From the NCBI GenBank assembly GCA_028818755.1, contig JAPPNF010000171.1, forward strand, positions 1 to 64,000: DNA of 64,000 nt, given 5' to 3'. A model generated the notes under the pieces. The model did not search any database. It saw only the letters and a list, made by a program, of their open reading frames with translations, and had not been told where the DNA came from. Position numbers and translations under genes: made by a program. The stretch comes from Deltaproteobacteria bacterium. GTDB lineage: Bacteria > Desulfobacterota > Binatia > UBA9968 > JAJDTQ01. Positions 20,132-54,748 of the stretch are shown here, piece after piece; the first letter of the stretch is position 1; every line of letters starts with the position of its first letter.

Positions 20132-21694
20132 ATGATCACTCTGACGAGAGTCATCCCCAACCGCTACCGCGACTCCCTGTCGCTCATGCAGCTCTCTGCC
20201 CGGGCGGCCGAGACATCGGGCGTGGACGCCGCGGCCGTGGTGATGGCGACCGACGGCAACCGGGCGCTGTTGCGCGACGCGGGTCTCCTCGCCGGCGAGG
20301 CCGATGCCGGGGCCGACGACATGCTGGTGGTGGTTCGGGGTGACGACAGGAAGATCATCGAGCAGGTCTTCGCCGCGCTCGAAGAAGAGTTGAGCCGGGC
20401 CACGCCGGCAACCCGCGCTGCCGCGAGCGCCAATGCCGCCCTGCCCCGCAGCCTGGCCATGAGCCTCGAGGAGACACCCGGCAACCTGGCGCTCATCTCG
20501 GTGCCGGGCGAGTACGCGGCCGCCGAGGCCCTCAAGGCCTTGCGGCTGGGGCTCCACGTCATGCTGTTCAGCGCCGGCGTGTCCGAGGCGGACGAGGTGG
20601 CGCTGAAACGGTACGCCAACGCCAACGGCCTGCTGGTGATGGGTCCCGACTGCGGCACGGCCATCATCAACGGCATACCGCTGGGGTTCGCCAACGTGGT
20701 GCGGCGCGGTGACATCGGCTGCATCGGCGCCGCCGGCACCGGCCTTCAGGAAGTGACCACGCTCATCCACCGGTACGGCGGCGGCCTTTCCCAGGTAGTT
20801 GGGACCGGCGGACGGGACCTCTCCCGTGCGGTCGGCGGCCTCTCCACCTTGCAGGCCCTGGACGCTCTGGCCCGGGACCCGGCGACGCGCGTCATCGCGC
20901 TGGTCTCCAAGCCCCCGGACCCCGAGGTGGCCGCACGGGTCCTCGAGCGGGCCCGGCGCGCCGGCAAGCCCGTGGTGGTGAACTTTCTCGGAGCGGCCCC
21001 GGACGTCCCACCGGCGCCCGGTCTCGTCTCGGCACGGACCCTGGAGGAGGCCGCCCGGGCGGCGGTGGCCCTGTCCCAGGGCGTTGCGTTCTCACCCGAC
21101 ACTACGCCCGAACGTCGGACCCAACCGGACGACAGGCTCGCGGACGCAGGTGGCCCAAGGACACCCGGCCGGCGGTTCATCCGCGGGCTCTACAGCGGCG
21201 GCACGCTGGCCGCCGAGGCGGTGCTGCTCATGCGTGAGGCGTTGGGGCCGGTCTACAGCAATACTTCCATGCCGCCGTTCCTGAATGATATCTGGAAGAG
21301 TCAGGGACACACGGTGGTGGACCTGGGCGACGCGCGGCTGACGCGGGGACGTCCGCATCCGATGATCGATCCGCGGCTGCGCGCCGAACGCATCCTGCGT
21401 GAAGCCGCCGACCCGGAGGCCGCCGTGATCCTCCTGGACGTGGTGCTGGGTCACGGCGCCCATGACGATCCCGCGGGTTCGCTGGCGCCAGTCATCCGCG
21501 AAGCGGCGCAGGCAGCGAAGCGGGCCGGCAAACGGCTCTCGTTCGTGGCATCCGTGTGCGGGACCCCCGACGATCCGCAGAACGCGCCTCAACAGGAACG
21601 CAGGTTGGAGGACGCGGGTGTGATCCTGGGCCGCAGCAACGCCGAGGCCGTCCGGATGGCGTTGGAGCTTGCGCGCGACGAGCGGCACGAATAG
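20132..21694 (+). CDS. fdrA: FdrA-like acyl-CoA synthetase-fold protein (carbamoyltransferase-associated)
   Basis: LMQLSARAAETSGVDAAAVVMATDGNRALL, SVPGEYAAAEALKALRLGLHVMLFSAGVS, LLVMGPDCGTAIINGIPLGFANVVRRGDIGCIGAAGTGLQEVT, GLYSGGTLAAEA. Confidence 0.85.
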   Translation: MITLTRVIPNRYRDSLSLMQLSARAAETSGVDAAAVVMATDGNRALLRDAGLLAGEADAGADDMLVVVRGDDRKIIEQVFAALEEELSRATPATRAAASANAALPRSLAMSLEETPGNLALISVPGEYAAAEALKALRLGLHVMLFSAGVSEADEVALKRYANANGLLVMGPDCGTAIINGIPLGFANVVRRGDIGCIGAAGTGLQEVTTLIHRYGGGLSQVVGTGGRDLSRAVGGLSTLQALDALARDPATRVIALVSKPPDPEVAARVLERARRAGKPVVVNFLGAAPDVPPAPGLVSARTLEEAARAAVALSQGVAFSPDTTPERRTQPDDRLADAGGPRTPGRRFIRGLYSGGTLAAEAVLLMREALGPVYSNTSMPPFLNDIWKSQGHTVVDLGDARLTRGRPHPMIDPRLRAERILREAADPEAAVILLDVVLGHGAHDDPAGSLAPVIREAAQAAKRAGKRLSFVASVCGTPDDPQNAPQQERRLEDAGVILGRSNAEAVRMALELARDERHE

Positions 21695-21700
21695 GGCAGT

Positions 21701-23197
21701 GTGGTGTCTGATTCATCGGGTGAGGACATCGACAGCCGAGTGCAGGGAGCCATGATCGAGCATTTGTTCCGCGATGAACTCCGGGTCTTCAACGTCGGCC
21801 TGGATATCTTCGCTGACTCCATCAGCGCCGGCGGCGGCGCCGTGCAGCGGACCGATTGGCGTCCGCCCGCGGCCGGGGACCGGGAAACCGGCGCGGCCCT
21901 CGCCTCCCTGGTCAACCTCCCGGAGGTGGAGAAGGCCAACGACCGTGCGTTCGCCGCCTACCTCGCCGCGCAGCCGGTGCTGGAGGGCATCGGCACGGCA
22001 AGGGACGCTGTCCCCGGAATGGGCGAGCGCATGATCCTCCACGCCGGCCCGCCGGTGACGTGGGAGCGCATGTGCGGCCCCATGCAGGGGGCGGTCACCG
22101 GAGCGATCCTTCTGGAGGGGTGGGCTGACGACCCCGACGGCGCGCGGGCGCTGGCGGCCAGCGGCGGGATCATCTTCGAACCCAACCACCATCACGCCTG
22201 CGTCGGCCCCATGGCAGGGGTCACGAGCCCGTCCATGCCAGTGTGGATCGTGCGCGACGCCGAGCACGGCCACAGCACCTGCTGCAACCTCAACGAGGGA
22301 CTGGGGAAGGTGCTGCGCATGGGCGCGTACGATGGGGAGGTGCTGAAGAGGCTGCGGTGGATGGAGCGGGCGCTGGCGCCGACGTTGAAGGCCGCGCTGG
22401 AACAGCGTGAAGGACTGCCGCTCAAACCCCTTATGGCGCAGGCGCTGCACATGGGCGACGAGGTGCACAACCGCAACGTCGCGGCCTCTTCCCTACTGCT
22501 CCGGGCGCTGCTGCCGGCGCTGTTGGAGAGCGGTGCGCCGCAGGCCCGCATCGCCGAGACCGTGCGCTTCATCACCGGCAACGACCACTTCTTCCTCAAC
22601 CTCTCCATGTCCGCCTGCAAAGCCATGCTGGATGCCGCCCACGGCTTCCCGGGAAGCAGCATGGTCACCGCCATGGCGCGCAACGGAGTGGAGTTCGGCA
22701 TCCGGGTCAGCGGCACCGGAGACGCCTGGTTCACGACTCCGGCGCCGCGCGTCCAAGGGCTCTTCTTCGCGGGATACAGCGTGGAGGATGCGGCCCCCGA
22801 CCTGGGCGACAGCGCCATCACCGAGACCGCGGGCATCGGCGGTTTCGCCATGGCCGCGTCGCCGGCCATCGTGAAGTTCGTGGGCGGCTGCGCCGCTGAC
22901 GCCCTCGGCGCCACCGCCGAGATGGGCCACATCACACTGGGAAGGAACCCGGCGTGGACCCTGCCGGTCCTGGACTTCCAGGGCACGCCAGCAGGCATCG
23001 ACGTGCGCAAGTGCGTCGATACCGGCATCGCGCCGGTCATCAACACCGGCATCGCCCACCGTGAAGCGGGTATCGGCCAAATCGGCGCCGGGGTCACCCG
23101 GGCGCCGCTGGAATGCATGGAACAAGCGGTCACCGCGTTGGCCCGACGGCTTCGGGAAGACGGACAACTCACAACCCGACAAGGAGTCCTCTCATGA
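21701..23197 (+). CDS. DUF1116 family protein (YlbE/FdrA partner)
   Basis: LRVFNVGLDIFADSI, DWRPPAAGD, NDHFFLNLSMSACKAMLDAA, MVTAMARNGVEFGIRVSGTGDAWFTTPA; GTG start; directly downstream of fdrA. Confidence 0.8.
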   Translation: MVSDSSGEDIDSRVQGAMIEHLFRDELRVFNVGLDIFADSISAGGGAVQRTDWRPPAAGDRETGAALASLVNLPEVEKANDRAFAAYLAAQPVLEGIGTARDAVPGMGERMILHAGPPVTWERMCGPMQGAVTGAILLEGWADDPDGARALAASGGIIFEPNHHHACVGPMAGVTSPSMPVWIVRDAEHGHSTCCNLNEGLGKVLRMGAYDGEVLKRLRWMERALAPTLKAALEQREGLPLKPLMAQALHMGDEVHNRNVAASSLLLRALLPALLESGAPQARIAETVRFITGNDHFFLNLSMSACKAMLDAAHGFPGSSMVTAMARNGVEFGIRVSGTGDAWFTTPAPRVQGLFFAGYSVEDAAPDLGDSAITETAGIGGFAMAASPAIVKFVGGCAADALGATAEMGHITLGRNPAWTLPVLDFQGTPAGIDVRKCVDTGIAPVINTGIAHREAGIGQIGAGVTRAPLECMEQAVTALARRLREDGQLTTRQGVLS

Positions 23198-24297
23198 ACG
23201 TAAGCGCATTCAAGGTAGCGATGGGGGCCCCCGACGATGTGTCGGAAGGGCGGAAGCTGCTGGACGCGGGAGCATTCCGGGCCGAGCACGTGGTGGCCAT
23301 CCTGGGCAAGACCGAAGGCAACGGCGGCGTCAACGACTACACCCGGGCGCTGGCCACCCAGTGCTTCCAGTTGCTGATCGCGGAGAAGTCGGGCCTCAGC
23401 ATGGACGACATCGCCAGGAAGGTGCCGATCATCTGGTCGGGCGGCACCGAGGGGTTGATGAGCCCCCACGCCACCATCTTCGTGAAGGACCCGGACGGCG
23501 ACGGCGGCGGCAAGGGCAAGGGCTTTACCGTGGGCACCGCCTATACCCGCGACATGACGCCGGAGGAGTTCGGCACCATGACCCACGTGCGGTCCGCGGC
23601 CGAGGGCGTGAAGGTGGCCATCGAGGACGCCGGCATCGACGATCCGTCGGACATCCACTTCGTCCAGATCAAGACCGGCGCGCTCACCACCGAGCGGATC
23701 AAGGACGCCTGGTCGCGCAACGCGCGCGTCGTCACCACCGACACCTACAAGTCCATGTCCTACGCCCGTAGCGTGGCCGCCCTCGGCATCGGCATGGCCA
23801 CCGGCGAGATCGAGGCCGGCAACGTCAGCGAAGCGGTCATCGGGCAGGACCTCGCCATCTTTTCCAACGTGGCCTCGGCCTCTTCCGGCATCGAGCTGAT
23901 GAACTGCGAGGTCGTCGTCCTCGGCAACTCGCCGCGCTCCACCAGCGGGCTCATCATCGACCACGCGGTGATGAGGGACGCCATCGACGCGGCGGCGGTG
24001 CGGGAAGCGCTCCGCAAGGTGGGGCTCGAGGTGAACGGCGAGTTGTCGGAGCGCGACCAGGACCGGCTGGTGAACATGTTCGTCAAGTGCGAGCCGGACC
24101 CGTCCGGCAACACCCGCGGCCGCCGGCACGTCGTGTTCGAGGACTCGGACATCAACTACACCCGGCACATCCGCGGCGCGGTGAACGCGGTGGTGGCCTC
24201 GGTCACCGGTGACACTATGTGCTACGTCTCCGCGGGCGCCGAGCACCAGGGCCCGGCCAGCGGCGGCGTGGTGGCGGCGCTGGCGCGCAAGACTTGA
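23194..24297 (+). CDS. Ring-opening amidohydrolase (cyanuric acid amidohydrolase / barbiturase family)
   Basis: KTEGNGGVNDYTR, IWSGGTEGLMSPHATIFV, CEVVVLGNSPRSTSGLIIDHAVM, TCYVSAGAEHQGPASGGVVAAL; ATGA overlap with the DUF1116 gene. Confidence 0.88.
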   Translation: MNVSAFKVAMGAPDDVSEGRKLLDAGAFRAEHVVAILGKTEGNGGVNDYTRALATQCFQLLIAEKSGLSMDDIARKVPIIWSGGTEGLMSPHATIFVKDPDGDGGGKGKGFTVGTAYTRDMTPEEFGTMTHVRSAAEGVKVAIEDAGIDDPSDIHFVQIKTGALTTERIKDAWSRNARVVTTDTYKSMSYARSVAALGIGMATGEIEAGNVSEAVIGQDLAIFSNVASASSGIELMNCEVVVLGNSPRSTSGLIIDHAVMRDAIDAAAVREALRKVGLEVNGELSERDQDRLVNMFVKCEPDPSGNTRGRRHVVFEDSDINYTRHIRGAVNAVVASVTGDTMCYVSAGAEHQGPASGGVVAALARKT

Positions 24298-24409: not shown

Positions 24410-25549
24410 ATGACACAACGTGAACCTTACGGCAGCAGCAAGGGTTTCGAACGACTGGGGCACATCGACATCCCGGGCGGCGGACAGGTGGTGGTGCAGG
24501 GAGACTACGCCTACGTCGGACACATCGAACCGCCCCACGGCACAACCATCGTGGACATCTCCGACCCCCGGAACCTCAAGGTGGTCTCGCGCGTCGAGGT
24601 CCCCGAGGGGACCCACTCGCACAAGGTCCGGGTCCACGGCGACGTCATGCTCGTGAACAACGAACGCTACGGCGGGCCGTCGAAGAACGGCTTTCAGGGC
24701 GGTCTCAGGATCTACGACGTGGCCGACAAGGCCAACCCACGCGAGATCGGCTTCTACCGCGCCGCGGGCACCGGCGTTCACCGTTTCGACTTCGATGGAG
24801 ACTACGCCTACTTCTCGCCGCAGGTGGAGGGTTACGTCGGCAACATCGTGATGATCCTGGACCTGAAGGACCCGGCCCGGCCCGAGGAGGTGGGGCGCTG
24901 GTGGATGCCCGGACAGTGGACCGCAGGCGGCGAGACTCCGAGCTGGCAGGGCGTCCGGCACCGCTGCCACCACCCGCTCCGGCTCGGCGACCGGCTGTAC
25001 ACCAGCTACTGGCACGGCGGCTTCGTCATCCTGGACATATCGGACATGACCCGCCCGCAAAGGGTCGGCGGCCTCGACTGGAGCCCGCCCTACCCTTGCC
25101 CCACTCACACCGCCTTGCCGATCCCCCAGACCGTCCAGGGGCGGAGGCTGCTGGTGGTCACGGACGAGGAAGTGGTGGACCGGCTGACGCCGGCGCCCAA
25201 CGCCTTCATGTGGATCGTCGACATCACCGAGGAGACGCAACCCGTGCCCATCGCCACCTTCCGGGTGCCCAACGACGAACCGTTCAACCCCGACGAATGG
25301 TTCGGTTCGCATCAACCGCAGGAGCAGGTCGAAGGCAACACCATCTTCGTGACCTGGTTCGCCGGCGGACTCCGCGCCGTGGACATCCGCGACCCCTGGA
25401 GTCCGCGGGAGACCGGCTACTACATGCCCGAACCCGGCCAGGGGGAGTCCATCGTCCAGAGCAACGACGTTTTCCTCGACCGTTCCGACGGCCGGCTGTA
25501 CCTGCTGGACCGGCTGTGCGGGCTCGACGTTCTCGAATTTGCCGGCTAG
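24410..25549 (+). CDS. LVIVD-repeat beta-propeller-like protein
   Basis: Repeated YVGHIEPPHGTTIVDISDPRNLKVV / LRIYDVADKANPREIGF / VILDISDMTRPQRVG / LRAVDIRDPWSPRETGY. Confidence 0.8.
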   Translation: MTQREPYGSSKGFERLGHIDIPGGGQVVVQGDYAYVGHIEPPHGTTIVDISDPRNLKVVSRVEVPEGTHSHKVRVHGDVMLVNNERYGGPSKNGFQGGLRIYDVADKANPREIGFYRAAGTGVHRFDFDGDYAYFSPQVEGYVGNIVMILDLKDPARPEEVGRWWMPGQWTAGGETPSWQGVRHRCHHPLRLGDRLYTSYWHGGFVILDISDMTRPQRVGGLDWSPPYPCPTHTALPIPQTVQGRRLLVVTDEEVVDRLTPAPNAFMWIVDITEETQPVPIATFRVPNDEPFNPDEWFGSHQPQEQVEGNTIFVTWFAGGLRAVDIRDPWSPRETGYYMPEPGQGESIVQSNDVFLDRSDGRLYLLDRLCGLDVLEFAG

Positions 25550-25668: not shown

Positions 25669-26649
25669 ATGAAGTATGCAAAGCTTTTCGTACCGGGCCT
25701 GATCCTGACCGTGGTGCTGGCGTTTTCCGGCTGGAATCCCGCCGCGGCCGACACCGTCACGCTGAAGCTGGCCACCTATGACCCGAAGACGGCCGTGACC
25801 CTGTCCGCCATACCCAAGTTCATCGAGCTGGTGGCGGAGAAGTCTAAGGGCACGCTCAAGGTCGACTGGATCGGCGGACCGGAGATCACTCCGGGCAGGA
25901 AGCAGCCCGCGGCGGTCCAGAAGGGCGTGCTGGACATGAGCGTGGCCTGGGCCTACGTGCTCCACGTCAAGGCGGCGCAGGTGATGCACCTCTCCCAGCT
26001 CACCCCGGCGGAGGAACGGACGAGCGGGCTCCACGACTTTCTCACGGCGGAGTTCGCGAAGAGCGGTTTCGCCTATCTGGGCCGGACCTCGACAGCCACA
26101 CCCTACGTGCTCGTGAGCACCAAGAAGGCGGAGAAGCCGGGAGATCTGAAGGGTCTGGGGTTCCGAACCTCCGGGATCTACGAGCCGATCATCGAGCAGG
26201 CCGGAGGCCGCAAGGTACGGGTGGCGAGTCCGGAAGTCTATTCGGCCCTTCAGCGGGGCCTGATTGACGTGAGACCGGCCCCCATGGCGACCGTGGTGGA
26301 CGGGAAGCTCTACGAAGTCCTCAAGTACTGGGTGGGCCCCGGCTTCTTCACGGCCCAGAACACGGTGCTTTGCGTCAACCTCAAGAAGTTCAAGAGTCTG
26401 TCCGCCGACCACCGGAAAGTCCTGATGGATGCCGCGGCGGAGACCGAGAAGGGCCTCGTCAGCCTCAAGAAGAAGGAGTTCGACGCGGCCTGGCAGGTTG
26501 CCAAGAAGAACGGCATGGTGCGCATCGACTGGCCCAAGGACGTCAACGACCACTTCTTCAACGAAGTCATGAAGAAGTCCTGGGCACGGGTCGAGAAGGG
26601 CGTCGGCAAGGAGCTGGTCGACAAGATGCGGCCCTTGATGAGCCGGTGA
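25669..26649 (+). CDS. dctP: TRAP transporter substrate-binding protein (DctP family)
   Basis: Signal peptide, KLATYDPKT..., GFRTSGIYEPIIEQAGG, VYSALQRGLIDVR; followed by DctQ and DctM. Confidence 0.88.
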   Translation: MKYAKLFVPGLILTVVLAFSGWNPAAADTVTLKLATYDPKTAVTLSAIPKFIELVAEKSKGTLKVDWIGGPEITPGRKQPAAVQKGVLDMSVAWAYVLHVKAAQVMHLSQLTPAEERTSGLHDFLTAEFAKSGFAYLGRTSTATPYVLVSTKKAEKPGDLKGLGFRTSGIYEPIIEQAGGRKVRVASPEVYSALQRGLIDVRPAPMATVVDGKLYEVLKYWVGPGFFTAQNTVLCVNLKKFKSLSADHRKVLMDAAAETEKGLVSLKKKEFDAAWQVAKKNGMVRIDWPKDVNDHFFNEVMKKSWARVEKGVGKELVDKMRPLMSR

Positions 26650-26793: not shown

Positions 26794-27321
26794 GTGAAGG
26801 TATTCCTTACGAAACTCGGCGTCGCCTGGGACCGTTTCCTGGACGTTTCCCTGGTGATCTCCGCCGTGGCGGTGGTCCTCGCCTCCCTGTTCACGCTTTC
26901 CGACATCGCGAGCCGGCAGTTCTTCGCCTCGGCCCTGGGCTGGGCCATCGAGCTCGCGGAGTATTGCCTCCTCTACCTGGCATTCTTCGGCGCGGCCTGG
27001 CTCTTGCGGGAGGACGGCCACGTCAAGGTGGAGGTGGTGGTGGAGGTGCTGGGCGCCAGGAACCAGGCGTTGCTGGGGATGGTGACTTCGGCCGTCGGCG
27101 TGCTGGTCACCGGGGTTCTGGCCTACTTCGCCACCACCACCACCGTCATGGAGTATATGGCCGGCACCAAGATGTACGAGAGCCCCCTCAAGCCGCCGCT
27201 CTATCCCCTGCTGATCCCCATCCCCGTCGGCGCCGCGTCCCTGTGCATCCAGTTCATGCGCCGAACTTGCAGCTATTACCGCCGCTGGCAAGACGCACGG
27301 ACGCCGGAGGGCGGGCAATGA
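26794..27321 (+). CDS. dctQ: TRAP transporter small permease (DctQ family)
   Basis: 4 TM segments, FTLSDIASRQFF, AWLLREDGHVKVEVVVE; GTG start. Confidence 0.85.
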   Translation: MKVFLTKLGVAWDRFLDVSLVISAVAVVLASLFTLSDIASRQFFASALGWAIELAEYCLLYLAFFGAAWLLREDGHVKVEVVVEVLGARNQALLGMVTSAVGVLVTGVLAYFATTTTVMEYMAGTKMYESPLKPPLYPLLIPIPVGAASLCIQFMRRTCSYYRRWQDARTPEGGQ

Positions 27322-27360: not shown

Positions 27361-28671
27361 ATGGATTGGCCGCTCCTGCTGCTGACGTTCTTCTCGGTCA
27401 TCGTCGTGCTGCTGATGACCGGCCTGCCCATCGCCTTCGTGTTCATGCTGGTGACCGCCGGCGGCGCGTTGACCCTTTGGGGCGGCGGTCCGGGCATGGA
27501 GCTGGTGGTGCTGAACATACAGACCGCGCTGTCCACGTTCACGCTGCTGGCGATCGTGGAATTCACCCTCATGGGCATGGTGATCTTCCATTCCGGCATG
27601 GGCAACACCATGCTCAGGGTGCTGGGCGACTGGCTGGGAGCCGTACCGGGACGCCTGTCCATCCTCGGCATCGCCTTCGCCACCCTGTTCGCCACCATGA
27701 GCGGCTCTTCCCTGGCCAGCTCCACGGTCATGGCCACCGTGCTGACGCCGGAGATGGAGAAGCAGGGCTACAAGAAGCCCATGAGCCTGGGACCCATCCT
27801 GGGCGGCGGCGGGCTCGCCATGATGATCCCGCCCAGCGGCCTCGCCATCATCCTGGCGGCCATCGCCAAGATCTCCGTGGCCAAGATCCTCATCGGTGGG
27901 GCCGTCCCCGGGCTCATGCTGGCCGCCCTCTACATGATCTACATCGTCACCCGGGCGGCGATCCAGAAGGACCTCGCTCCGGCCTACGCGGTGGAGCTGC
28001 CGCCGCTGCCGCGCCGCGTGTACGATACCGTGGTCTACGTCGTACCCCTCGGCCTGATCGTCTTCCTCACCCTGGGGCTCATCTTTCTCGGCGTAGCGAC
28101 CCCGTCCCAGTCCGCCGTCACCGGCGCCCTGGGAGCGTTCATCCTCGCCGCCCTCTACGGCAAGCTCGACTGGAACCTGGTGAAGGTGTCGCTCCGCGGC
28201 ACCGTCCGGGTGTCCACCATGATCCTGATGATCTTCGCCTCCTCCGCGACCTTCAGCCAGATCATGGCCTTCGCGGGCATCACCCGCGGGATCAGCAACT
28301 TCGTCGCCGGCCTCGAGGTAGCGCCCATCCTGATCATCATCGGCATGATGATCGTCGTGCTCATCCTGGGCATGATCATGGAGGTGGTGACTATCTTCAT
28401 GGTCACCATCCCGATCTTCATGCCTGTGGTGATCGCCCTGGGATTCGATCCGGTGTGGTTCGGGCTGCTGATGCTGCTCAACGCCGAGATGGCCCTGACC
28501 TCGCCGCCCTTCGGCACGAGCCTCTTCGCGGTGAAGGCCGCGGCGCCGCCCGACACCACCATGCGCGACGTCTATGTCTCCGCGCTGCCCTTCCTGGCCT
28601 GCGACCTGGTGGTGCTGGTCCTGCTGATCGCCTTCCCGGGCATCGCGTTGTGGCTGCCGAACATGTTGTAA
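27361..28671 (+). CDS. dctM: TRAP transporter large permease (DctM family)
   Basis: LLMTGLPIAFVFM, SGSSLASSTVMATVLTPEMEKQGY, MMIPPSGLAIILAAIA, LTSPPFGTSLFAVKA. Confidence 0.92.
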   Translation: MDWPLLLLTFFSVIVVLLMTGLPIAFVFMLVTAGGALTLWGGGPGMELVVLNIQTALSTFTLLAIVEFTLMGMVIFHSGMGNTMLRVLGDWLGAVPGRLSILGIAFATLFATMSGSSLASSTVMATVLTPEMEKQGYKKPMSLGPILGGGGLAMMIPPSGLAIILAAIAKISVAKILIGGAVPGLMLAALYMIYIVTRAAIQKDLAPAYAVELPPLPRRVYDTVVYVVPLGLIVFLTLGLIFLGVATPSQSAVTGALGAFILAALYGKLDWNLVKVSLRGTVRVSTMILMIFASSATFSQIMAFAGITRGISNFVAGLEVAPILIIIGMMIVVLILGMIMEVVTIFMVTIPIFMPVVIALGFDPVWFGLLMLLNAEMALTSPPFGTSLFAVKAAAPPDTTMRDVYVSALPFLACDLVVLVLLIAFPGIALWLPNML

Positions 28672-31627: not shown

Positions 31628-32392
31628 GTGATGGAGCGTTTGCGCAGTCTGGGTCCGGGGCTGACCTCGTTTGCGGTTGTCGCACTGGTGTGGGAGAGCA
31701 TCTCTCAAAGCGGCCTCGTGCCCCGCTACTTCCTGCCGCCGCTCAGCGCCGTCCTGGAGGAAGCGTGGCTGCTCCTGGTGCGGGACTCTTCCCTCTACGG
31801 CGACATCGGCATCAGCATCGTGCGCATCGGCGCCGGGTTCGCGCTGTCCCTGGCGTTCGGCGTCGTGTGCGGGACGGCCGCGGGGTTGAGCCGCAGGGCG
31901 GAGAGCTTCCTGGTGCCGTCTATCGGCACCATCGCTCCCGTGCCCAAGGTGGCGTTCCTGCCGCTCTTCGTGGTGTGGTTCGGGATCGGCGAGCTGGCGA
32001 AGATACTCGTGGTCTTCGCCAACAACTTCTACCAGCTCTTCGTCAACACCTTCTCCGGCATCAAGGAAATCGACCAGCGCTACCTGTGGGCGGCCGCTTC
32101 CATGGGGTTCTCCCGCTACGAGCTGATCCGCTACGTGGTGCTGCCGGGATCGCTGCCCTACATCATCAGCGGAGCGCGCATCACGGCGCCGGTGGCCGTC
32201 GTCATCATCGTCCTGGCGGAGATGGTCGCGGCGCGTAACGGCATCGGGTTCTTTACCTACCAGATGGCCAGGGACTACCGCCTGGCGGAAATGTTCGTCG
32301 GCCTGGGCGTGCTGGGCGTCATCTCCATCGGGTTCGACGCCCTCGTCAGCGCCGTCGGCCGGCGCCTGACTCACTGGGAGCCCACCTCATGA
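31628..32392 (+). CDS. ABC transporter permease (SsuC type), second paralogue
   Basis: FSGIKEIDQRYLWAAASMGFSRYELIRYVVLPGSLPYIISGARI; GTG start. Confidence 0.9.
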   Translation: MMERLRSLGPGLTSFAVVALVWESISQSGLVPRYFLPPLSAVLEEAWLLLVRDSSLYGDIGISIVRIGAGFALSLAFGVVCGTAAGLSRRAESFLVPSIGTIAPVPKVAFLPLFVVWFGIGELAKILVVFANNFYQLFVNTFSGIKEIDQRYLWAAASMGFSRYELIRYVVLPGSLPYIISGARITAPVAVVIIVLAEMVAARNGIGFFTYQMARDYRLAEMFVGLGVLGVISIGFDALVSAVGRRLTHWEPTS

Positions 32393-33831
32393 GCACCGAG
32401 AAGATCATCCTCGCCGGCACCCTGCTGTGTTCGGCATCCGAGCCCGTGCTCCGGAACCGGCTGGTGCGGATATCAGGAGACCGGATCGACGCCGTCGAGC
32501 CGCTGCCGGACACCTTCCCGGCGGATGGACGCGACGTGGTGGATGCGCGCGACAAGGTCGTCATCCCCGGCTTCGTCAACGCGCACACGCACCACACCGA
32601 GATCCTGCAGCGAAGCCTCCGGGACGCGCTGCCCTTCGAGCTGTGGCATTTCGAAAGGCGCGGGACCGAGGACATCCTCGATCCGGACTACGACGACCTG
32701 CTCGCCGCCAACCACATCGCCCTGCTGGAATCCCTCAAGCACGGGACCACCAGCGTCCTGCACCATCTCTCCAGAAGACGCGCCATCGACCTCACCGAGG
32801 TCCGGGCCTGCATCGATGCCGCCCAACGGCTCGGCGTGCGCACGGCCATCGCGCCGTCGGCCACCGACGGCGGCTGGCGCGCCGTCCCGGCGCGGGAAGC
32901 GTCCGAGACCGGCGCGGCGGAGATCGCGGGCGTGAAGCGGGCGCTGGACCTCATCGCCCAGGGCCCGGACCATGTCATGGGCGTGGTCGCACCCACTTCG
33001 CTCCACACCTGCTCGGACAGCTTCCTGACCGAGTGCCTCGCCATCGCCGAGGACAGGGACCTCGTCGTTCACACTCACTTCATGGAAACCCGCTCGGAGG
33101 CGCAACAACGGTCGGCGGACGGCGAAACGCCGGTTCGAAGAGCCGCGCGCCTCGGGCTTCTGAAGGCCGGCGTGTCCCTGGCCCATGCCGTGCACCTCAC
33201 CGATGAGGAGCTGGACCTCCTGGGCGAGAAGCAGCCGGCGGTGGTCCACAATCCGTCCAGCAACGCCAAGCTCGGGAGCGGCTTGGCACGGGTGCGGGAA
33301 ATGCTGGATCGAGGCGTTACCGTCGCACTGGGCTCCGACGGCGGCGACACCAGCGACGGCTATTCGATGTTCGACCAGATGAAGATGGCGGCGGTCATGC
33401 GCCGTTGCAGCGTCACGGAGTTCGAGTCCTGGATCACGGCGCGGGAAGCCTTCGCCATGGCCACCACGGGAGGGGCCGCGGTGCTCGGCATCCAGGCCGG
33501 CCGCATCGCACCCGGTCACCTCGCTGACATCTGCATCCTCAAGCCCCGCACGCGCATGTGGCCGTCCACCGAGCTGGTGCAGAGCCTCGTCTACTCCGAG
33601 AACGGCCGCAGCGTCGACACCGTGCTGGTGGGCGGCGAGGTCTTGCTGGAGGACGGCCGGAGCCTGCGCATCGACGAGGCCGAGCTGGCGCGTCAGGCCG
33701 AGAAGCTGGCAGCGAAGGTCGACAGCGCACGTCAGAAGTGGGCGGAACGGAAGCGTGACCCCGAGGTAATGGAGAGAGAGCGTGCCGCGGAGGAGAGTTA
33801 CCGGGAAGCGGCGGCGACAGCGGCGCGGTGA
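32389..33831 (+). CDS. Deaminase/chlorohydrolase-type amidohydrolase (ATZ/TRZ family), paralogue 1
   Basis: VVIPGFVNAHTHHTEILQRSLRD, VHTHFMET, LAHAVHLTDEELDLL, VALGSDGGDTSDGYSMFDQMK, GRIAPGHLADICIL; ATGA overlap with the permease. Confidence 0.9.
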   Translation: MSTEKIILAGTLLCSASEPVLRNRLVRISGDRIDAVEPLPDTFPADGRDVVDARDKVVIPGFVNAHTHHTEILQRSLRDALPFELWHFERRGTEDILDPDYDDLLAANHIALLESLKHGTTSVLHHLSRRRAIDLTEVRACIDAAQRLGVRTAIAPSATDGGWRAVPAREASETGAAEIAGVKRALDLIAQGPDHVMGVVAPTSLHTCSDSFLTECLAIAEDRDLVVHTHFMETRSEAQQRSADGETPVRRAARLGLLKAGVSLAHAVHLTDEELDLLGEKQPAVVHNPSSNAKLGSGLARVREMLDRGVTVALGSDGGDTSDGYSMFDQMKMAAVMRRCSVTEFESWITAREAFAMATTGGAAVLGIQAGRIAPGHLADICILKPRTRMWPSTELVQSLVYSENGRSVDTVLVGGEVLLEDGRSLRIDEAELARQAEKLAAKVDSARQKWAERKRDPEVMERERAAEESYREAAATAAR

Positions 33832-33933
33832 CAAACTGCCGCCTGCCGCGGCGGGGCACGGCGCCTTTTCCGGTCCGCGCTCCGTCGCCACGATCTCCGA
33901 GTCAGGCGGCTTCGCCGGATTGGAGCGACACGC

Positions 33934-35385
33934 ATGACGGACGCAAAGTTCATCCTGGCCGGAACCCTGCTCACTTCGGCTTCGGAGCCCGTGCTCAGGG
34001 ACCGGCTGATCCGCATCCGCGGGGACGTTGTCGAGAGCGTCGAGCCGTTGCCGCCCGCGCCGCCGGAAACGTCCACCGGTGCGCTCGTCATCGATGCGCG
34101 CGACAAGGTCGTCATGCCCGGCCTGATCAACGCTCATTGCCACCACACCGAAGTGTTGCAGCGGAGCCTTCGGGACCGCGTTCCCTTCGAGCTTTGGCTC
34201 CCGGAACGGCGCGGCATCGAGGACGCCCTGGACCTCGGCTACGACGACCTGTTGGCGGCCAACCACATCGCCCTCCTGGAGAACCTGAAGCACGGCGCCG
34301 CCACCGTGCTCCACCACCTGTCCCGGCGCGGCGCCGTGGACCTGCAAGAGATTCGGGCCTGTATCGAGGCGGCCGACCGTATCGGCATCCGCACGTTCAT
34401 TGCGCCCTCGGTAGCGGACGTGGGCTGGCGGCGCGTCGTCCCGGCCCAGGAGGCGTCCGCCGCGGCACTCCAGGAACTCGATCGTCTCGGCCAAGCCCTG
34501 GACCTCGTCGCCGACGGACCGGCGACCGTCAAGGGCGTTGTCGCGCCCAGCTCGCCGCACACCTGCACGGACGACTTCCTGGGCCGCTGCCTGGCAATGG
34601 CCGAGGACAGGGGCCTGCTCATGCACACCCATTTCCTGGAAACCCGGGTTGAGGCCACCCAGCGCACCGCTGGCGGCGAAACCACGGTGGACCGCGCGTC
34701 ACGGCTCGGCCTGCTCCGGCCCGAGACTTCCCTGGCCCACGCGGTGCACCTCACCGACCGGGAGCTTGACCTCCTCAAGGACAAACAGCCGGCGGTGGTC
34801 CACAACCCGTGCAGCAACGCCAAGCTCGGCAGCGGCATCGCGCGCATCCGCGAAATGCTGGACCGGGGCATCACCGTGGCCCTGGGCTCGGATGGCGGCG
34901 ACACCAGCGACGGCTATTCCATATTCGATCAGATGAAGATGGCGGCGCTCATGCGGCGCCCAAGCGAGCCGGACTTCAACGGCTGGATCACCGCGACGGA
35001 GAGTCTGGCCATGGCCACCATCGGCGCGGCCAAGGCATTGGGGCTGCGAACCGGCAGGATTGCGCCGGGCCATCTGGCCGACGTCTGCATCCTGAAACCC
35101 GGCACCCGGATGTGGCCGGCCGCGGACCTGGCGCAGGCTCTCGTCTATTCCGAGAACGGAAGCAGCGTCGACACGGTGCTTGTGGGCGGCAACGTCGTGC
35201 TGGAGAATGGCGAGAGCCCGCACATCGACGAAGCCGTGTTAGGCCGTCAGGCACGAGAACTGGCCGAACGAGTCGAGCGGGCGAGAAGCGAGAGGGCTGC
35301 GCGCAAACTCGCGCCGGAAATCGCCGAACGCCTCCAGGCCGCGGAGCATGAGTATCGCGAAGCCGCGCCGATGCCCAGGAAGTAA
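33934..35385 (+). CDS. Deaminase/chlorohydrolase-type amidohydrolase (ATZ/TRZ family), paralogue 2
   Basis: VVMPGLINAHCHHTEVLQRSLRD, MHTHFLET, LAHAVHLTDRELDLL, VALGSDGGDTSDGYSIFDQMK; colinear with paralogue 1 over its full length. Confidence 0.9.
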   Translation: MTDAKFILAGTLLTSASEPVLRDRLIRIRGDVVESVEPLPPAPPETSTGALVIDARDKVVMPGLINAHCHHTEVLQRSLRDRVPFELWLPERRGIEDALDLGYDDLLAANHIALLENLKHGAATVLHHLSRRGAVDLQEIRACIEAADRIGIRTFIAPSVADVGWRRVVPAQEASAAALQELDRLGQALDLVADGPATVKGVVAPSSPHTCTDDFLGRCLAMAEDRGLLMHTHFLETRVEATQRTAGGETTVDRASRLGLLRPETSLAHAVHLTDRELDLLKDKQPAVVHNPCSNAKLGSGIARIREMLDRGITVALGSDGGDTSDGYSIFDQMKMAALMRRPSEPDFNGWITATESLAMATIGAAKALGLRTGRIAPGHLADVCILKPGTRMWPAADLAQALVYSENGSSVDTVLVGGNVVLENGESPHIDEAVLGRQARELAERVERARSERAARKLAPEIAERLQAAEHEYREAAPMPRK

Positions 35386-35956: not shown

Positions 35957-36484
35957 ATGAAATTAATGCGAACAAAATCGTATTACATACTCAGCGATAG
36001 CGTGCAGGAATTCGATTTGTTGGCTAGGCTGCCGCAACCGGACACTATCACGTTACCGGTATTGACACCGATCGGGACCGATCATGTGCTCGACCCGGTG
36101 AACATCGAGGATTTCTGGGGTCAGGGCAAGCCACTACTAGGTGTGCGCATTCACTCGGTTGCCAATGCAAAGGAGGCTCACCTAAGCGAGCACGGCCACA
36201 TGCCTGGTCCGCGCATTATGGCCGTACAGTCTCTTGTATCCGACCAATCGTCGGCTGAAACCGAACCAAGGTTCGAGGCCGACATCAAGCCACTGTTCCG
36301 GACCCGCGACGTGACCTGTATGCGCTTCGCGGGCTTCGATCTCCACAACTATGACGACGTAAAGGCTAATGCGTCCACTATCTACGAACGGCTCAGTGAT
36401 GGCACGATGCCCACTGATGGGCCTTGGCCACCTGCCGATGTGGAACTCTTCAAAGCGTGGAAGGACGGCGGCATGGCACCCTGA
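35957..36484 (+). CDS. Hypothetical protein with a conserved DIKPLF...FDLHNYDDVKANA...MPTDGPWPP...ELFKAWKDGGM segment
   Basis: Open frame 35768-36484; ATG at 35957 precedes the protein-like part; visibly lower GC than surroundings. Confidence 0.6.
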   Translation: MKLMRTKSYYILSDSVQEFDLLARLPQPDTITLPVLTPIGTDHVLDPVNIEDFWGQGKPLLGVRIHSVANAKEAHLSEHGHMPGPRIMAVQSLVSDQSSAETEPRFEADIKPLFRTRDVTCMRFAGFDLHNYDDVKANASTIYERLSDGTMPTDGPWPPADVELFKAWKDGGMAP

Positions 36485-36485
36485 T

Positions 36486-38045
36486 ATGGCGCGGCTTATA
36501 ACCTTTTCGGCGGCTGTGGTCTTGGCCCTGCTTTCCTTCGCCCTGTCGGGAGGCGCGCAAGCCCAGGGGACGCAAGACCCGCAAACCACAGTCTACGCGA
36601 CCGGAGCGGTCTTCGAGACGGCGGAGGAGCTTGCGGACAAGCCCCGGACGCTCTTGTTCCGGGCGTTTCTTCCCGAACACGTTGACTTGCGCGACCGGTT
36701 CCCCGTCGCCCGCCATCAAGGCAGGCAGAGTTCCTGTGTCGGCTGGGCCGTGGGCTACGCGGCCCGGTCCTACTACAACAGCTCCTCTGAAGGAGGACCG
36801 GGCCTGACGGCCGACCGGATTCCCAGCCCGGCCTACATCTACGACTCCATTCGGAGCCCCGGCGACGCCTGCGACAGGGGCACGAAAATCTCCGACGCCC
36901 TGGACCTGCTTGTCGACGGGGGCAGCCTGACCCACGCCGAATACCCGTACGACGAGGACCTGTGCAGGCGGCCGGGAACGGACGACGTGGCGCGCGCTTC
37001 CAAGTTCAGGATCGCGGGCTGGCAGGTGGTAGATACCGACCGTCTCGATCAGGTGAAGGCGGAGCTGGCGAACGGCCATCCGGTGGTGATCGGCATGCGG
37101 CCCAACAGAGACTTCCACCGGCTGAGAGGCAGCCGGATATGGCGCGCTGGCTTTCCGAATGAGGACGACGGGCATCACGCGGTGACGGTGGTGGGCTATT
37201 CCGAACGCGGCCAGTACTTCACAGTGATGAACTCCTGGGGTCCGGGCTGGGGCTTGGAGGGATTCGGGCACATATCGTACGACACCTTCGAAGACCGGGT
37301 GAAGTACGGCTTCTCGATGCGTATGGCGGATACCCCCGTTGCTCCCAAACCCGAGCCCCCGAGTCCCAAGCCAGCTCCGCCGGTGACGCCTTCCCCGGTT
37401 GTCCCGGAACTCAAGCTGCCGGCCGTGGGATGCGGGCGGCTGAAAATCGAGGAACAAAACGGAAAGACGCTTGTCAGGGGTTTCATCGGCAACCGGGATG
37501 ATCTCACCAAGGTGCGCAAGGCGGCAGAGCAGTCGAAGGCGCACGTGGAGGTGAAACTCCGGCCTTGGCCGCAATGCGAGACGCTGATGACTATCGAGAA
37601 ACCGTTGGCCCATCCGGACAAGCCGTCCTTTTCGCTGCCGAAGCGATCTTACCGGGCGTCTGAAACGCTGGGGTTCGAAGTGCGGATGTCGGGGTTCCAG
37701 GGATATCTGCACGTGGCTTACCTTCAGGCGGACGGCACGGTGGTCAATCTGGTCGAATCCGACCCGTTGACCCTCTCCACTCTGCCGGCGAACGCGAAGC
37801 TGCGATTCGGCGACGGACTGGCCGGGCGGCAAAAGTTTACGGTCGGGGAGCCTTTCGGGAACGAGATGATCGTGGCCCTCGCCTCGAAGAGCCCGCTCTT
37901 TGCGGAGGACCGGCCGCTCGTGGAGACCGAGCGGGAGTTTCTGACGGCGCTGAGAAGGGCCATCATCGCCCGGCCCGACCCGACGCAGCCCGAACGTGTC
38001 GTGAGTGCGGGTTTTGTTGCGCTGGAAACCAAACCGGGGGAGTGA
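36486..38045 (+). CDS. Secreted papain-like (C1A) cysteine protease with DUF4384-like C-terminal domain
   Basis: Signal peptide; QGRQSSCVGWAVGYAARS (Gln/Cys), DDGHHAVTVVGYSERGQYFTVMNSWGPGWG (His/Asn); Pro-rich linker; LPANAKLRFGDGLAGRQKFTVGEPFGNEMIVALASKSPLF. Confidence 0.85.
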   Translation: MARLITFSAAVVLALLSFALSGGAQAQGTQDPQTTVYATGAVFETAEELADKPRTLLFRAFLPEHVDLRDRFPVARHQGRQSSCVGWAVGYAARSYYNSSSEGGPGLTADRIPSPAYIYDSIRSPGDACDRGTKISDALDLLVDGGSLTHAEYPYDEDLCRRPGTDDVARASKFRIAGWQVVDTDRLDQVKAELANGHPVVIGMRPNRDFHRLRGSRIWRAGFPNEDDGHHAVTVVGYSERGQYFTVMNSWGPGWGLEGFGHISYDTFEDRVKYGFSMRMADTPVAPKPEPPSPKPAPPVTPSPVVPELKLPAVGCGRLKIEEQNGKTLVRGFIGNRDDLTKVRKAAEQSKAHVEVKLRPWPQCETLMTIEKPLAHPDKPSFSLPKRSYRASETLGFEVRMSGFQGYLHVAYLQADGTVVNLVESDPLTLSTLPANAKLRFGDGLAGRQKFTVGEPFGNEMIVALASKSPLFAEDRPLVETEREFLTALRRAIIARPDPTQPERVVSAGFVALETKPGE

Positions 38046-38640: not shown

Positions 38641-40356
38641 ATGCGGAAGCTCATGATAATGATGGCTGTGGGGTTCTCGTTGCAGGTTCTCAACGCGCAA
38701 GTTTGGGCAGCCCAACGCGTCGCACTTGTCGTCGGAAACGCAGCGTACGAGCACGCCCCTCGACTGGCCAACCCCCTCAACGACGCCAGCGACATCGGCG
38801 CAGCACTGGTCCGTCTGGGCTTCACGGTAACCAAGCTCGATAACGCCGACTACGACGGGATGCGCCGGGGGCTCAGGGCGTTCACGCGGGCGGCGGCGAC
38901 GGCGGAGGTCGCCCTGATCTTCTATGCCGGCCACGGTATCGAGATCGACGGACGCAACTTCCTGGTGCCCGTGGACGCGCGTCTGGCGAGCGACCAGGAT
39001 GTGGAATACGAGGCGGTGCCTTTGGATCTGGTGTCGCGGGCGGTGGAACGGGCCTCGGAACTACGGGTGGTGATCCTGGACGCCTGCCGGGAGAATCCGT
39101 TCGCCGTCGCAATGAGGCGGGCCGGTGCGACACGGTCGATCGGGCGCGGTCTGGCGCGGGTGGAGCCGGCAGGCGAGTTTCTAGTGGCGTATGCGGCGAA
39201 GGGCGGCTCGCTGGCCGCGGACGGCAAGGGCAGGAACAGCCCCTTCAGCACGGCGCTGCTGGCCCACCTAGAGGAGCCAGGGCTGGAGGTCGGGCTCATG
39301 TTCCGCAAGGTGCGCGATGCCGTGCTGGCCACTACCGGCGGACAACAGGAGCCTTTCGTCTACGGTTCCCTGTCGAGCAAGGGCGCATATCTGAAGGCTC
39401 CGCCGGAAGTACCTGGACCCACTCCTGCAACGTCCCGTGAAGCACCGCTGAAGCCCGGCCTCGTCTCGGTGCGGGCGGCTGCGGAGCAAGTGGCGGCAAA
39501 GCGCGTAGCGGCCGAGAAGGAACTGCTGTTTTGGGAATCGGTGAAGGACAGCAAGGATCGGGCCGAGATACAGGCTTACCTGACCCAGTTTCCCGGCGGG
39601 ACGTACGAAGCCTTGGCGCTGAACCGGCTCAAGCGGCTGTCGGACCGGGGAGCGAAAATGCGGGGTCGGGACGTGGAGGCGATGGAAAGGGCGCTCGGTC
39701 TTGAGCGAACGGAGCGGAAGCGCATTCAGACCGCGCTCTGGGCGAACGGCTTCGATCCTGGCGACCGAGACGGACTGTTCGGGCAACGCACGCGCGCGGC
39801 GATCAGGAAATGGCAGGCATCACGAGGCAAGGTCGAGACGGGGCATCTGGACACAGCGGCGGCGAAGACGCTGCTCGGGGTGGCACCGGACCTGTCCGGG
39901 GGCGTGTGGGCGGAAGCCAAGGGGAGTGGCTGTAAGGTGTGGAACGGCTTCCCTAAGCCCCCAGAGACGGTGAGCTGGACCGGAGCATGCGACGGGGGCA
40001 AGGCAACGGGTGATGGTCGGCTGGTCTGGAAGAATCCTGACGGAGAGTCGTATTACGAAGGCCGATACCGCCAAGGTCAGATGCATGGCCGTGGCACCTA
40101 TACTTGGTCCAGCGGCAGCCGGTACGAGGGTGAATGGAAGAATGGCGAGAAGCATGGCCGCGGCACCTATACTTTTTCCAGCGGCAACCGCTACGAAGGC
40201 GAATGGCGAGACGGAAAGATTCATGGCCCGGGGGTCGGGTACGACAAGTCTGGAAAGCTGCTCCAGACGGACAACGCCATCAACGGCTGTTTTGGTAGGC
40301 GTGATGGCTGGTGGTTTGTTTCGGGCAATACCGCGGAGGCCTGCGGGTTCAAATGA
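38641..40356 (+). CDS. Secreted caspase-family (C14) protease with peptidoglycan-binding domain and MORN repeats
   Basis: Signal peptide; [51 protein letters not shown] (His), [11 protein letters not shown] (Cys); PGB-like [31 protein letters not shown]; three MORN units ([51 protein letters not shown]). Confidence 0.9.
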
Positions 40357-46611: not shown

Positions 46612-48063
46612 TTACCTCCCCGCCGGAAGGTCCGGCGTCTTCTTGTACCATCCCGCGGCCCGCTCGTAGGCATGGCCGACCCGCAGGACCGTCTCCTCGT
46701 CGAAGGGCCTGCCGACGATCTGCATGCCGATGGGCAGGCCCGAGGCGGAAAAGCCGCAGCACACGCTGAGGGCCGGCAGCCCGGTCTGGTTGAACGGAAT
46801 CGTGCACAGCGTGAAAAGGTTGCCGCGGCGGTCCGAGAGCCTCACCTCCCGGCCGTCGATGCGGGCGGAGCCCCGGTCCAGCTCCTCGATGGTGGGCGCG
46901 GGAAACGAAATCGTGGGCACCACCATGACCCGGACGCGCTCGAAGGCCCGCTCGAATCCCTCGTAGATGAGCCGCCGCACCCGGTGCGCGGTGTTGACGG
47001 CGCTGCCGGATATGAGCAGCGAGCCGATGAGGTTTCTCAGCATTCCGGGACTGTAGTCCCGGGGCCGGGTACGCAGGTAACGATCGTGGTCCGGCATGTC
47101 CTCCACCCGGGCGATGCAGACCTGCACCGCCGGCAGAAGTTCCATGTGCGGGATCTCCACCTCCTCGGTCTCCACGCCCAGGGAGCCCAGGAACCGCACC
47201 GCCTCGTCGAATACCTGCCGGACCTCGTCGAACATCAACGCGTCGAAATAGCCCCGGACCAGGCCGACCCGAAGCCCGTCCGCCCCGCCGGACAGGCCGC
47301 GCGTGTAGTCCGGCATGGGCACCTCGGCGCAGTACGGATCCCGCGGATCCGCTCCCGCGATGCAGTTGAGGACCAAGGCGCAGTCCTCGACGGTCTTGGC
47401 CAGAACGCCGAAGTGGTTGATGGAGCCCGGTCCCGTGCCGGGCACCCCGCCGGACAGGCTCACGCGCCCGTGGGTGGCCTTCAGGCCGGCGATGCCGCAA
47501 AGAGCCGCGGGGTTGCGGACCGACCCGGCGCTGTCCGTGCCGATGGACGCCAGGCCCAGGCTCGCCGCCACCGCCGCGGCCGAGCCGCCGCTCGAACCGC
47601 CCGTGGCCCGGGTCACGTCCCAGGGATTGCGACTCGGGCCGTAGAACACGTTGTTGGTATGGCTCGACTTGGCCCACTCGTGCATGTGGGTCTTGCCCAG
47701 GATCACCGCGCCCGCCTCCCTGAGCCTGCTCACCACGGTCGCATCATGGTCGGGCTTCCAGTCGGAAAGGGTCTTCGACCCCGCGGTGGTGCGCACGCCC
47801 GCGACCGCGATGTTGTCCTTGATGGAGATGGGAATCCCGTGAAGCGGCCCGCGGTATTGCCCGGCGGCGATTTCCCGGTGCGCCTGCTCGGCCGCGGCAA
47901 ACGCCTGGTCCTTCATCACCATGGCGTAGGCATTCAGGACCGGATTCAACCGCTCGATGCGGGCCAGCACGAGCCTGGTCAATGCCACCGGCGACTGTGC
48001 CCCGCTGCTGATCTCGCGCGAGAGTTGAGAGATCGTGAGCTTTTCGAGCTCGCGCTCGTCCAT
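46612..48063 (-). CDS. Amidase signature family protein
   Basis: GIPISIKDNIAVAG, TGGSSGGSAAAVAASLGLASIGTDSAGSVRNPAALCGIAGLK. Confidence 0.92.
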   Translation of the reverse strand: MDERELEKLTISQLSREISSGAQSPVALTRLVLARIERLNPVLNAYAMVMKDQAFAAAEQAHREIAAGQYRGPLHGIPISIKDNIAVAGVRTTAGSKTLSDWKPDHDATVVSRLREAGAVILGKTHMHEWAKSSHTNNVFYGPSRNPWDVTRATGGSSGGSAAAVAASLGLASIGTDSAGSVRNPAALCGIAGLKATHGRVSLSGGVPGTGPGSINHFGVLAKTVEDCALVLNCIAGADPRDPYCAEVPMPDYTRGLSGGADGLRVGLVRGYFDALMFDEVRQVFDEAVRFLGSLGVETEEVEIPHMELLPAVQVCIARVEDMPDHDRYLRTRPRDYSPGMLRNLIGSLLISGSAVNTAHRVRRLIYEGFERAFERVRVMVVPTISFPAPTIEELDRGSARIDGREVRLSDRRGNLFTLCTIPFNQTGLPALSVCCGFSASGLPIGMQIVGRPFDEETVLRVGHAYERAAGWYKKTPDLPAGR

Positions 48064-48362
48064 TCCGGTCACTCCATCGGAACTTGCAGACCCTGCTACG
48101 GCCACTAAGTGCCTATACGCGGGAGCCCCGATGGAAATCAAGCCCGCACCTCGGTCTCGCTGCGTTGCCGTGCGTTTGCCGGTTGCGGTATCGGGCGATT
48201 GCCGGGTGGCAAGGCGTGCAAATGCCGGACTGTCCGGCTAGTGCATGCGGTGAGGCTGTAGGTGACACCGTCATGATTGACACGTTGCCGTCGTCTTTGA
48301 GAGAGTCGTCCGGTCACTGACGGCTACCGGGCAGGCCGGCCAAGCACAGGAGCATATAGTCC

Positions 48363-52299: not shown

Positions 52300-52380
52300 C
52301 GTTGCAAGGGTACGGCACCTTCGTGCACCACTTGACCCCCTCCCCCGTATCGGCTGTATTGGGCGGACGGAGCGAATGGC

Positions 52381-54672: not shown

Positions 54673-54686
54673 AGGCTGTCGTCGTC

Positions 54687-54706
54687 ATTCCCGCGAAAGC
54701 GGGAAT
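54687..54706. repeat. dRS3-like palindromic repeat (ATTCCC-N8-GGGAAT)
   Basis: ATTCCCGCGAAAGCGGGAAT between the Mo-subunit and FAD-subunit genes. Confidence 0.75.
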
Positions 54707-54748
54707 CCAGGGGTGGGGCGGAATCGCCGCACGCTGTAGAGATCGCTC

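Follow-up and report, generated by a model that had tools for sequence, protein, structure and literature searches.

The allFG–ring hydrolase operon

A window of 64,000 nucleotides (positions 1 to 64,000 of contig JAPPNF010000171.1, assembly GCA_028818755.1), taken from the metagenome-assembled genome (MAG) of an uncultured soil bacterium of the Candidatus Binatia, carries head to tail on its + strand the genes of an AllF (FdrA)-like subunit, an AllG (DUF1116) subunit and a ring-opening amidohydrolase of the AtzD/TrzD/barbiturase family (Table 1). The original prediction had placed three such open reading frames here, and both their coordinates and their families are upheld by family models. 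Indeed, AllF, whose gene starts with ATG at 20132, scores 510.8 bits against NF004760 (cut-off 433) and is matched at 285 bits by the solved FdrA structure 3dmy, while AllG scores 330 bits against PF06545 (E 8e-99) and is matched at 431 bits by its solved homologue 3clq. The ring hydrolase reaches 452 bits with PF09663, 437 bits with TIGR02714 (cut-off 153) and 464 bits with NF052395, the NCBIfam equivalog of the cyanuric acid hydrolase (CAH) subgroup (cut-off 360). Its start at 23194 and the allG stop at 23197 share the tetranucleotide ATGA, as predicted. The cytosine-deaminase-like gene expected on the opposite strand is likewise present, its product having cytosine deaminase (190 bits) and AtzC (175 bits) as nearest solved structures. 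This gene is retained next to allF in G113, G115, G116 and the Rokubacterium locus L179, and its product is probably a ring deaminase supplying the ring hydrolase. A promoter scan of the divergent intergenic region gave no site.

AllG and the ring hydrolase are encoded by adjacent genes in seven of nine genomes of the genus and are both missing from the other two. In relatives whose contigs extend far enough, an LVIVD gene and then the genes of a TRAP transporter follow in unchanged order. Among 148 genomes of the class, seven encode both an AtzD-family protein and AllG, two AllG only and none AtzD only (Fisher test 1e-10, computed on genomes that are not phylogenetically independent). The association of AllG with the ring hydrolase exceeds chance.

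Recurrent pairing in other taxa

A set of 84,980 species genomes was scanned with an AtzD-family alignment; the best 80 of at least 542 loci were considered and seed searches were added. Of 33 taxon groups from several phyla, 18 have AllF and/or AllG encoded within 10 kb of an AtzD-family gene. The linkage of FdrA, DUF1116 and ring hydrolase, which the original prediction had put forward for checking, is thus strongly conserved. The linked groups include Binatia, Rokubacteria, a Bathyarchaeota MAG, Moorella, Clostridium ultunense, Tissierella, Amphibacillus, Proteiniclasticum, Acholeplasmataceae, Pelolinea, another Chloroflexi MAG, Rubneribacter, Enterococcus, Melaminivora, Huaxiibacter, Nitrospinota and others. 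The linked loci, some of which share a genome, are co-oriented in 40 cases out of 41. Loci with no AllFG nearby often belong to genomes that encode it at another place: AllG is found in 31 of 43 AtzD-bearing genomes, whereas just 9 of the 148 genomes of the class and one control out of 14 have it. The AllFG–ring hydrolase module is real and widespread.

In a quick AtzD-family tree with several open forks, nearly all AllFG-linked sequences fall in one large part that includes TrzD and the Moorella CAH, and AtzD of Pseudomonas ADP and the Bradyrhizobium type lie outside it. On the AllG tree, the AtzD-linked state amounts to 12 changes, at least six of them forced by starred branches, and the AllG of the window is placed together with those of enterobacterial plasmid clusters and one AtzD-linked AllG from an alphaproteobacterium. 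A single origin of the link was rejected, AtzD-linked AllG being scattered over the tree. The two families have thus been joined repeatedly, which argues for a functional link and, among the sequence evidence, speaks most strongly for a shared pathway.

AllH and carbamate kinase (AllK) share the cluster with the AtzD-family gene in many relatives, which fits a chemistry of carbamoyl phosphate. Enterobacterial conjugative plasmids display two arrangements. One runs from a membrane protein through ring hydrolase, NCS2 permease, AllH, AllF, AllG and AllK to LysR. The other, on a Klebsiella plasmid, comprises atzF, AllF, AllG, ring hydrolase, AllK, deaminase, BMP-type ABC transporter and AllH, with a hydrolase 100% identical to TrzD (5t13). 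The Moorella mulderi operon, ordered AllH-AllF-AllG-hydrolase-NCS2-AllK, encodes a hydrolase 97% identical to the solved Moorella CAH 6bum, and Melaminivora alkalimesophila possesses two AllFG–ring hydrolase clusters. Citrobacter pE51_002 and Klebsiella pKqs_SB610_3 (TrzD) combine ring hydrolase, FdrA and DUF1116 as the window does, pKqs_SB610_3 even in the identical fdrA-DUF1116-hydrolase order, whereas both plasmids add AllH, carbamate kinase and other transporters, and the Klebsiella one also atzF. Traces of such clusters accompany atzC, a gene of the atrazine pathway: on Arthrobacter plasmid pAD51 (L172:8001-10694), an AllG remnant is followed by carbamate kinase and atzC, and on a Paenarthrobacter plasmid (L171:6001-7562), an AllG fragment persists ahead of atzC. 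This suggests an AllFG-type cluster as the source of atzC.

The AllFG-linked AtzD loci are devoid of AtzE, the rival carboxybiuret amidase. The mutual exclusion of AtzE and AllFG over five AtzE groups is weak (p about 0.013), the Bradyrhizobium 'AtzE' matching at just about 107 bits. In the Pseudomonas sp. ADP type of pathway (AtzD-AtzG-AtzE-AtzH-AtzF), an AtzD-family hydrolase and a nearby AtzC-like deaminase are found as in the window, but the window operon has AllFG instead of AtzE, AtzG, AtzH and AtzF, which implies that the ring-opened product is phosphorolysed rather than hydrolysed.

AllFGHK also adjoins TrtA/BiuH-like genes on E. coli plasmids and in Peptoclostridium. On E. coli plasmids pAPEC-O2-ColV (L034) and p135-1 (L035), a TrtA/BiuH-like cysteine hydrolase, AllH, AllF, AllG and carbamate kinase are joined in an operon with a stand-alone allophanate-hydrolase C-terminal domain and a cytosine permease, possibly forming a triuret or biuret pathway through carboxybiuret. 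Together with the nitrifier allFGHK genes located beside biuH/trtA (PMC12625717), these plasmid clusters resemble the window in that AllFG accompanies an upstream enzyme of acylurea metabolism, which is an isochorismatase-like hydrolase in their case and a ring hydrolase in the window.

Two side observations concern the ring hydrolase family. More than ten taxa have, next to the ring hydrolase, a protein of 411 aa predicted to span the membrane about 11 times (L033:2460-3695; matches L051-L076). It was rejected as an amidohydrolase, being a membrane protein without a Pfam family, and is a candidate cyanurate transporter family. On the Acidithiobacillus caldus megaplasmid (L199), a ring-opening amidohydrolase stands with a xanthine-dehydrogenase-like enzyme, ureidoglycolate lyase, AtzE, HpxZ and gamma-glutamyltransferase; this is a different pathway built on the same hydrolase family.

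Putative route and ring hydrolase specificity

It seems reasonably likely that the operon serves the catabolism of a cyclic imide of the cyanurate or barbiturate type, with AllFG phosphorolysing the ring-opened acylurea. The ring compound would be taken up by the TRAP transporter, then stripped of its exocyclic amino group by the divergent AtzC/cytosine-deaminase-like enzyme. The ring hydrolase would open the trione ring into a linear acylurea acid, an activity known for the family, giving carboxybiuret from cyanurate or ureidomalonate from barbiturate. AllF and AllG, taking the place of the amidase AtzE (with AllH where it occurs), would use phosphate to split off the terminal carbamoyl group as carbamoyl phosphate, leaving allophanate from carboxybiuret or malonamate from ureidomalonate. 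In many relatives, the adjacent carbamate kinase would convert carbamoyl phosphate into ATP, whereas in this genus it would go to pyrimidine and arginine synthesis. The genes, their families, the conserved linkage, the absences and the residue patterns are observed; the substrate, the phosphorolysis and the two-subunit form of AllFG are what we infer. More tentatively, though quite possibly, the phosphorolytic route is widespread for s-triazine and pyrimidinetrione rings, the Binatia using it with a new two-subunit carbamoyltransferase and a hydrolase of separate, barbiturase-sister specificity.

Carboxybiuret and ureidomalonate share the H2N-CO-NH-CO- end of oxalurate. Oxalurate is the known substrate of AllFGH, which turns it and phosphate into oxamate and carbamoyl phosphate and for which all three genes are required (PMC11326118). 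Both TrtA (triuret hydrolase) and AtzD yield carboxybiuret, whose half-life of about 20 min (PMC7948467) is sufficient for it to serve as a substrate, and allophanate as the second product agrees with the presence of AtzF next to TrzD and AllFG. On the other hand, AllFG could serve oxalurate or another purine product, with the ring hydrolase just co-resident in a general nitrogen-scavenging cluster, in the way that the nitrifier allFGHK genes adjoining triuret and biuret genes were interpreted as degrading oxalurate (PMC12625717). This explanation appears improbable: no allantoin-pathway enzyme was seen among the window proteins scanned, the AllG–AtzD pairing arose repeatedly, and carboxybiuret rather than oxalurate is the product common to AtzD and TrtA-type clusters (PMC7948467). 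In the same nitrifier study, comammox contigs carrying triuret genes display allFGHK and no trtB (PMC12625717).

AllF and AllG might also act as a CoA ligase-type enzyme making the CoA thioester of the ring-opened acid (e.g., ureidomalonate or malonamate), with no carbamoyl transfer. AllF does possess CoA_binding and Ligase_CoA domains, is related to the succinyl-CoA synthetase alpha subunit and is named acyl-CoA synthetase FdrA in NCBIfam, and the genus lacks AllH and carbamate kinase, which mark carbamoyl-phosphate chemistry. However, E. coli AllF, which belongs to an established carbamoyltransferase (PMC11326118), takes its name from that NCBIfam model too, the cluster showed no ATP-grasp beta subunit and relatives combine the same genes with carbamate kinase, so that thioester formation is unlikely.

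Concerning the substrate of the ring hydrolase, the three Ser-Lys pairs (Ser82, Ser230, Ser346, Lys39, Lys160, Lys298) and the substrate-binding Arg51, Arg192 and Arg324 are all in place, as is characteristic of the AtzD/TrzD/barbiturase family (PMC4051656). The enzyme is 52% identical to the Moorella CAH, 51% to TrzD and 45% to AtzD. Residues P78, W81, T161, S231, C299, I326 and T338 of the window clade are common to barbiturase and rare among CAH-type enzymes; four of them (W81, T161, S231, C299) adjoin the catalytic S82, K160, S230 and K298. At the positions where solved CAHs display C45, M81, C161 and A299, the window hydrolase has G45, W81, T161 and C299. Conversely, fifteen further positions including Arg192 match the CAH type. 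This Arg is reported to separate the groups, Gln being given for the barbiturase subgroup (PMC4051656), whereas the barbiturase 5hwe aligns with Asn at position 192. Rhodococcus barbiturase, which acts in actinobacterial uracil oxidation and belongs to the apparent sister clade, has P78, W81, T161, S231 and C299 in common with the window enzyme but differs by Asn in place of Arg192 and at the 14 other positions of cyanurate type. The Nonomuraea barbiturase gene lies about 41 kb from AllG, unlike the adjacent genes of the window. In a careful tree, the window hydrolase belongs to a clade of Binatia and Rokubacteria, within the part that holds TrzD and the Moorella CAH, that appears as sister to the barbiturases with support 96/94, but two long branches meet there. 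With barbiturase-like residues standing beside CAH-type positions including Arg192, both cyanurate and barbiturate stay possible as substrates, the predicted enzyme being filed as specific for neither, and a third substrate is possible too.

Missing partners, neighbouring genes and significance

Compared with E. coli allFGHK, the window shares AllF and AllG, their F-G order and their near-invariant residues, but the genome is devoid of AllH and carbamate kinase, and AllFG is partnered with a ring-opening amidohydrolase instead of the allantoin genes. All 66 near-invariant AllF positions and all 60 near-invariant AllG positions are intact, which makes decay unlikely. Indeed, it is very doubtful that the module of this genus is decaying, with AllFG inactive after the loss of AllH and carbamate kinase and with ring opening followed by spontaneous decay being enough. 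This scenario would account for the two missing partners, and carboxybiuret does turn spontaneously into biuret in about 20 min (PMC7948467), but residue conservation and the joint retention of AllG and ring hydrolase in seven of the nine genus genomes speak against it.

Several observations weigh against phosphorolysis of a ring-opened acylurea in this organism. PF11392 finds no AllH (DUF2877) in its genome, although it detects that of E. coli, and a profile of 13 sequences, which does detect divergent AllH in Rokubacteria and others, finds none at E<=1 in the nine genus genomes, one of which is a single contig. For carbamate kinase, TIGR00746 gave just fragments below its cut-off, with no arcC above it in the genus, many general amidases of the genus include no allophanate hydrolase/AtzF above the TIGR02713 cut-off, and urease is represented by partial fragments of about 20-28 bits, some above the low Pfam cut-off and none convincing. 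The fate of both products is thus unexplained. In E. coli, oxamate formation stops without allF or allG and nearly stops without allH (PMC11326118). Moreover, the hydrolase clade differs from that of every tested cyanuric acid hydrolase, and no biochemistry on AllFG(H) with carboxybiuret or ureidomalonate was found in the open-access literature.

A reduced complex had been predicted from the absence of DUF2877 and arcC in the window, and the genome and its genus agree, whereas the proposed gain of ATP by carbamate kinase does not hold here, no such kinase having been found in the organism. The five AA_kinases of the genome were rejected as carbamate kinases; they are ProB, aspartokinase, ArgB, PyrH and LysW-aminoadipate kinase. 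The genus enzyme is therefore not the E. coli AllFGH enzyme as defined and, if phosphorolysis holds, AllFG must act with two subunits or together with a partner that escaped recognition. A replacement of AllH might be sought in the conserved LVIVD propeller protein, whose gene comes after that of the hydrolase in Binatia and next to allF in Rokubacterium L179, so in two phyla. Its best fold and sequence match among solved structures is the haloalkylphosphorus hydrolase of Sphingobium (5hrm), a phosphotriesterase and metal hydrolase propeller, and at least ten of its many His are invariant across seven aligned sequences. Such a replacement has a slim chance of being correct: no sequence or fold link between LVIVD and AllH was seen, though no test was aimed at one, and a separate hydrolytic role is at least equally likely. 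As the model is of middling quality (mean pLDDT 67.6), the fold match is a lead only, and the protein is a candidate metal hydrolase of the pathway.

Table 1. Genes of the allFG–ring hydrolase locus and its surroundings in the window.
Feature	Position	Strand	Family	Remark
AllF (FdrA)-like subunit, 520 aa	20132..21694	+	NF004760, PF00549/PF02629	CoA_binding and Ligase_CoA domains
AllG (DUF1116) subunit, 498 aa	21701..23197	+	PF06545	GTG start
Ring-opening amidohydrolase, AtzD/TrzD/barbiturase family, 367 aa	23194..24297	+	PF09663, NF052395	
Cytosine-deaminase/AtzC-like amidohydrolase, 404 aa	18754..19968	-	PF07969 (Amidohydro_3)	Divergent
His-rich LVIVD beta-propeller protein	24410..25549	+	PF08309	Directly 3' of ring hydrolase; start set from conservation
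TRAP transporter substrate-binding protein DctP	25669..26649	+	PF03480	Equivalent place in relatives
TRAP transporter DctQ	26794..27321	+	PF04290	
TRAP transporter DctM	27361..28671	+	PF06808	Kept in relatives
TRZ/ATZ-type amidohydrolase (Amidohydro_1)	32389..33831	+	PF01979	Loosely associated
Second, paralogous TRZ/ATZ-type amidohydrolase	33934..35385	+	PF01979	696 bits to first copy

The DctP/TRAP system is probably the importer of the ring compound. The tandem TRZ/ATZ-type paralogues (32389-35385) come after an NMT1-type ABC transporter and are found near the TRAP genes in relatives, the homologue of the first copy lying nearer to them in L024/L025. An amidase of the window (46612-48141, - strand) is nearest to AtzE but remains below the cut-offs and lies 22 kb off. 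Further along, a UbiD-type decarboxylase gene followed by those of molybdopterin-hydroxylase subunits (50872-55633) forms a separate catabolic cluster. A papain-like protease gene (36369-38045) precedes one encoding a caspase domain, a peptidoglycan-binding domain and MORN repeats (38641-40356).

In the open-access literature, no paper was found to connect FdrA or AllFGH with AtzD, barbiturase or the catabolism of cyanuric acid, apart from PMC12625717, the nearest published observation, which reports no AtzD in its nitrifiers. Within that literature, the suggestion that the pathway is undescribed stands, whereas a prior mention of the neighbourhood is possible in key papers on AtzD context that lie outside the search. 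As far as seen, the parts are known, and their coupling and the AllH-less form are new.

The recurrent pairing in unrelated microbes suggests an undescribed and probably energy-saving breakdown of nitrogen rings of the cyanuric or barbituric acid type. If so, microbes would obtain ATP or free carbamoyl phosphate when they degrade cyanuric acid or barbiturate, conserving energy that the known AtzE/AtzF hydrolases waste, which would explain why the ring hydrolase is retained in anaerobes such as Moorella and Tissierella. Many FdrA/DUF1116/DUF2877 clusters that do not belong to the allantoin pathway would also be assigned a substrate class, among them those of enterobacterial conjugative plasmids and those next to trzD and atzC, two genes with a long history in research on s-triazine biodegradation.

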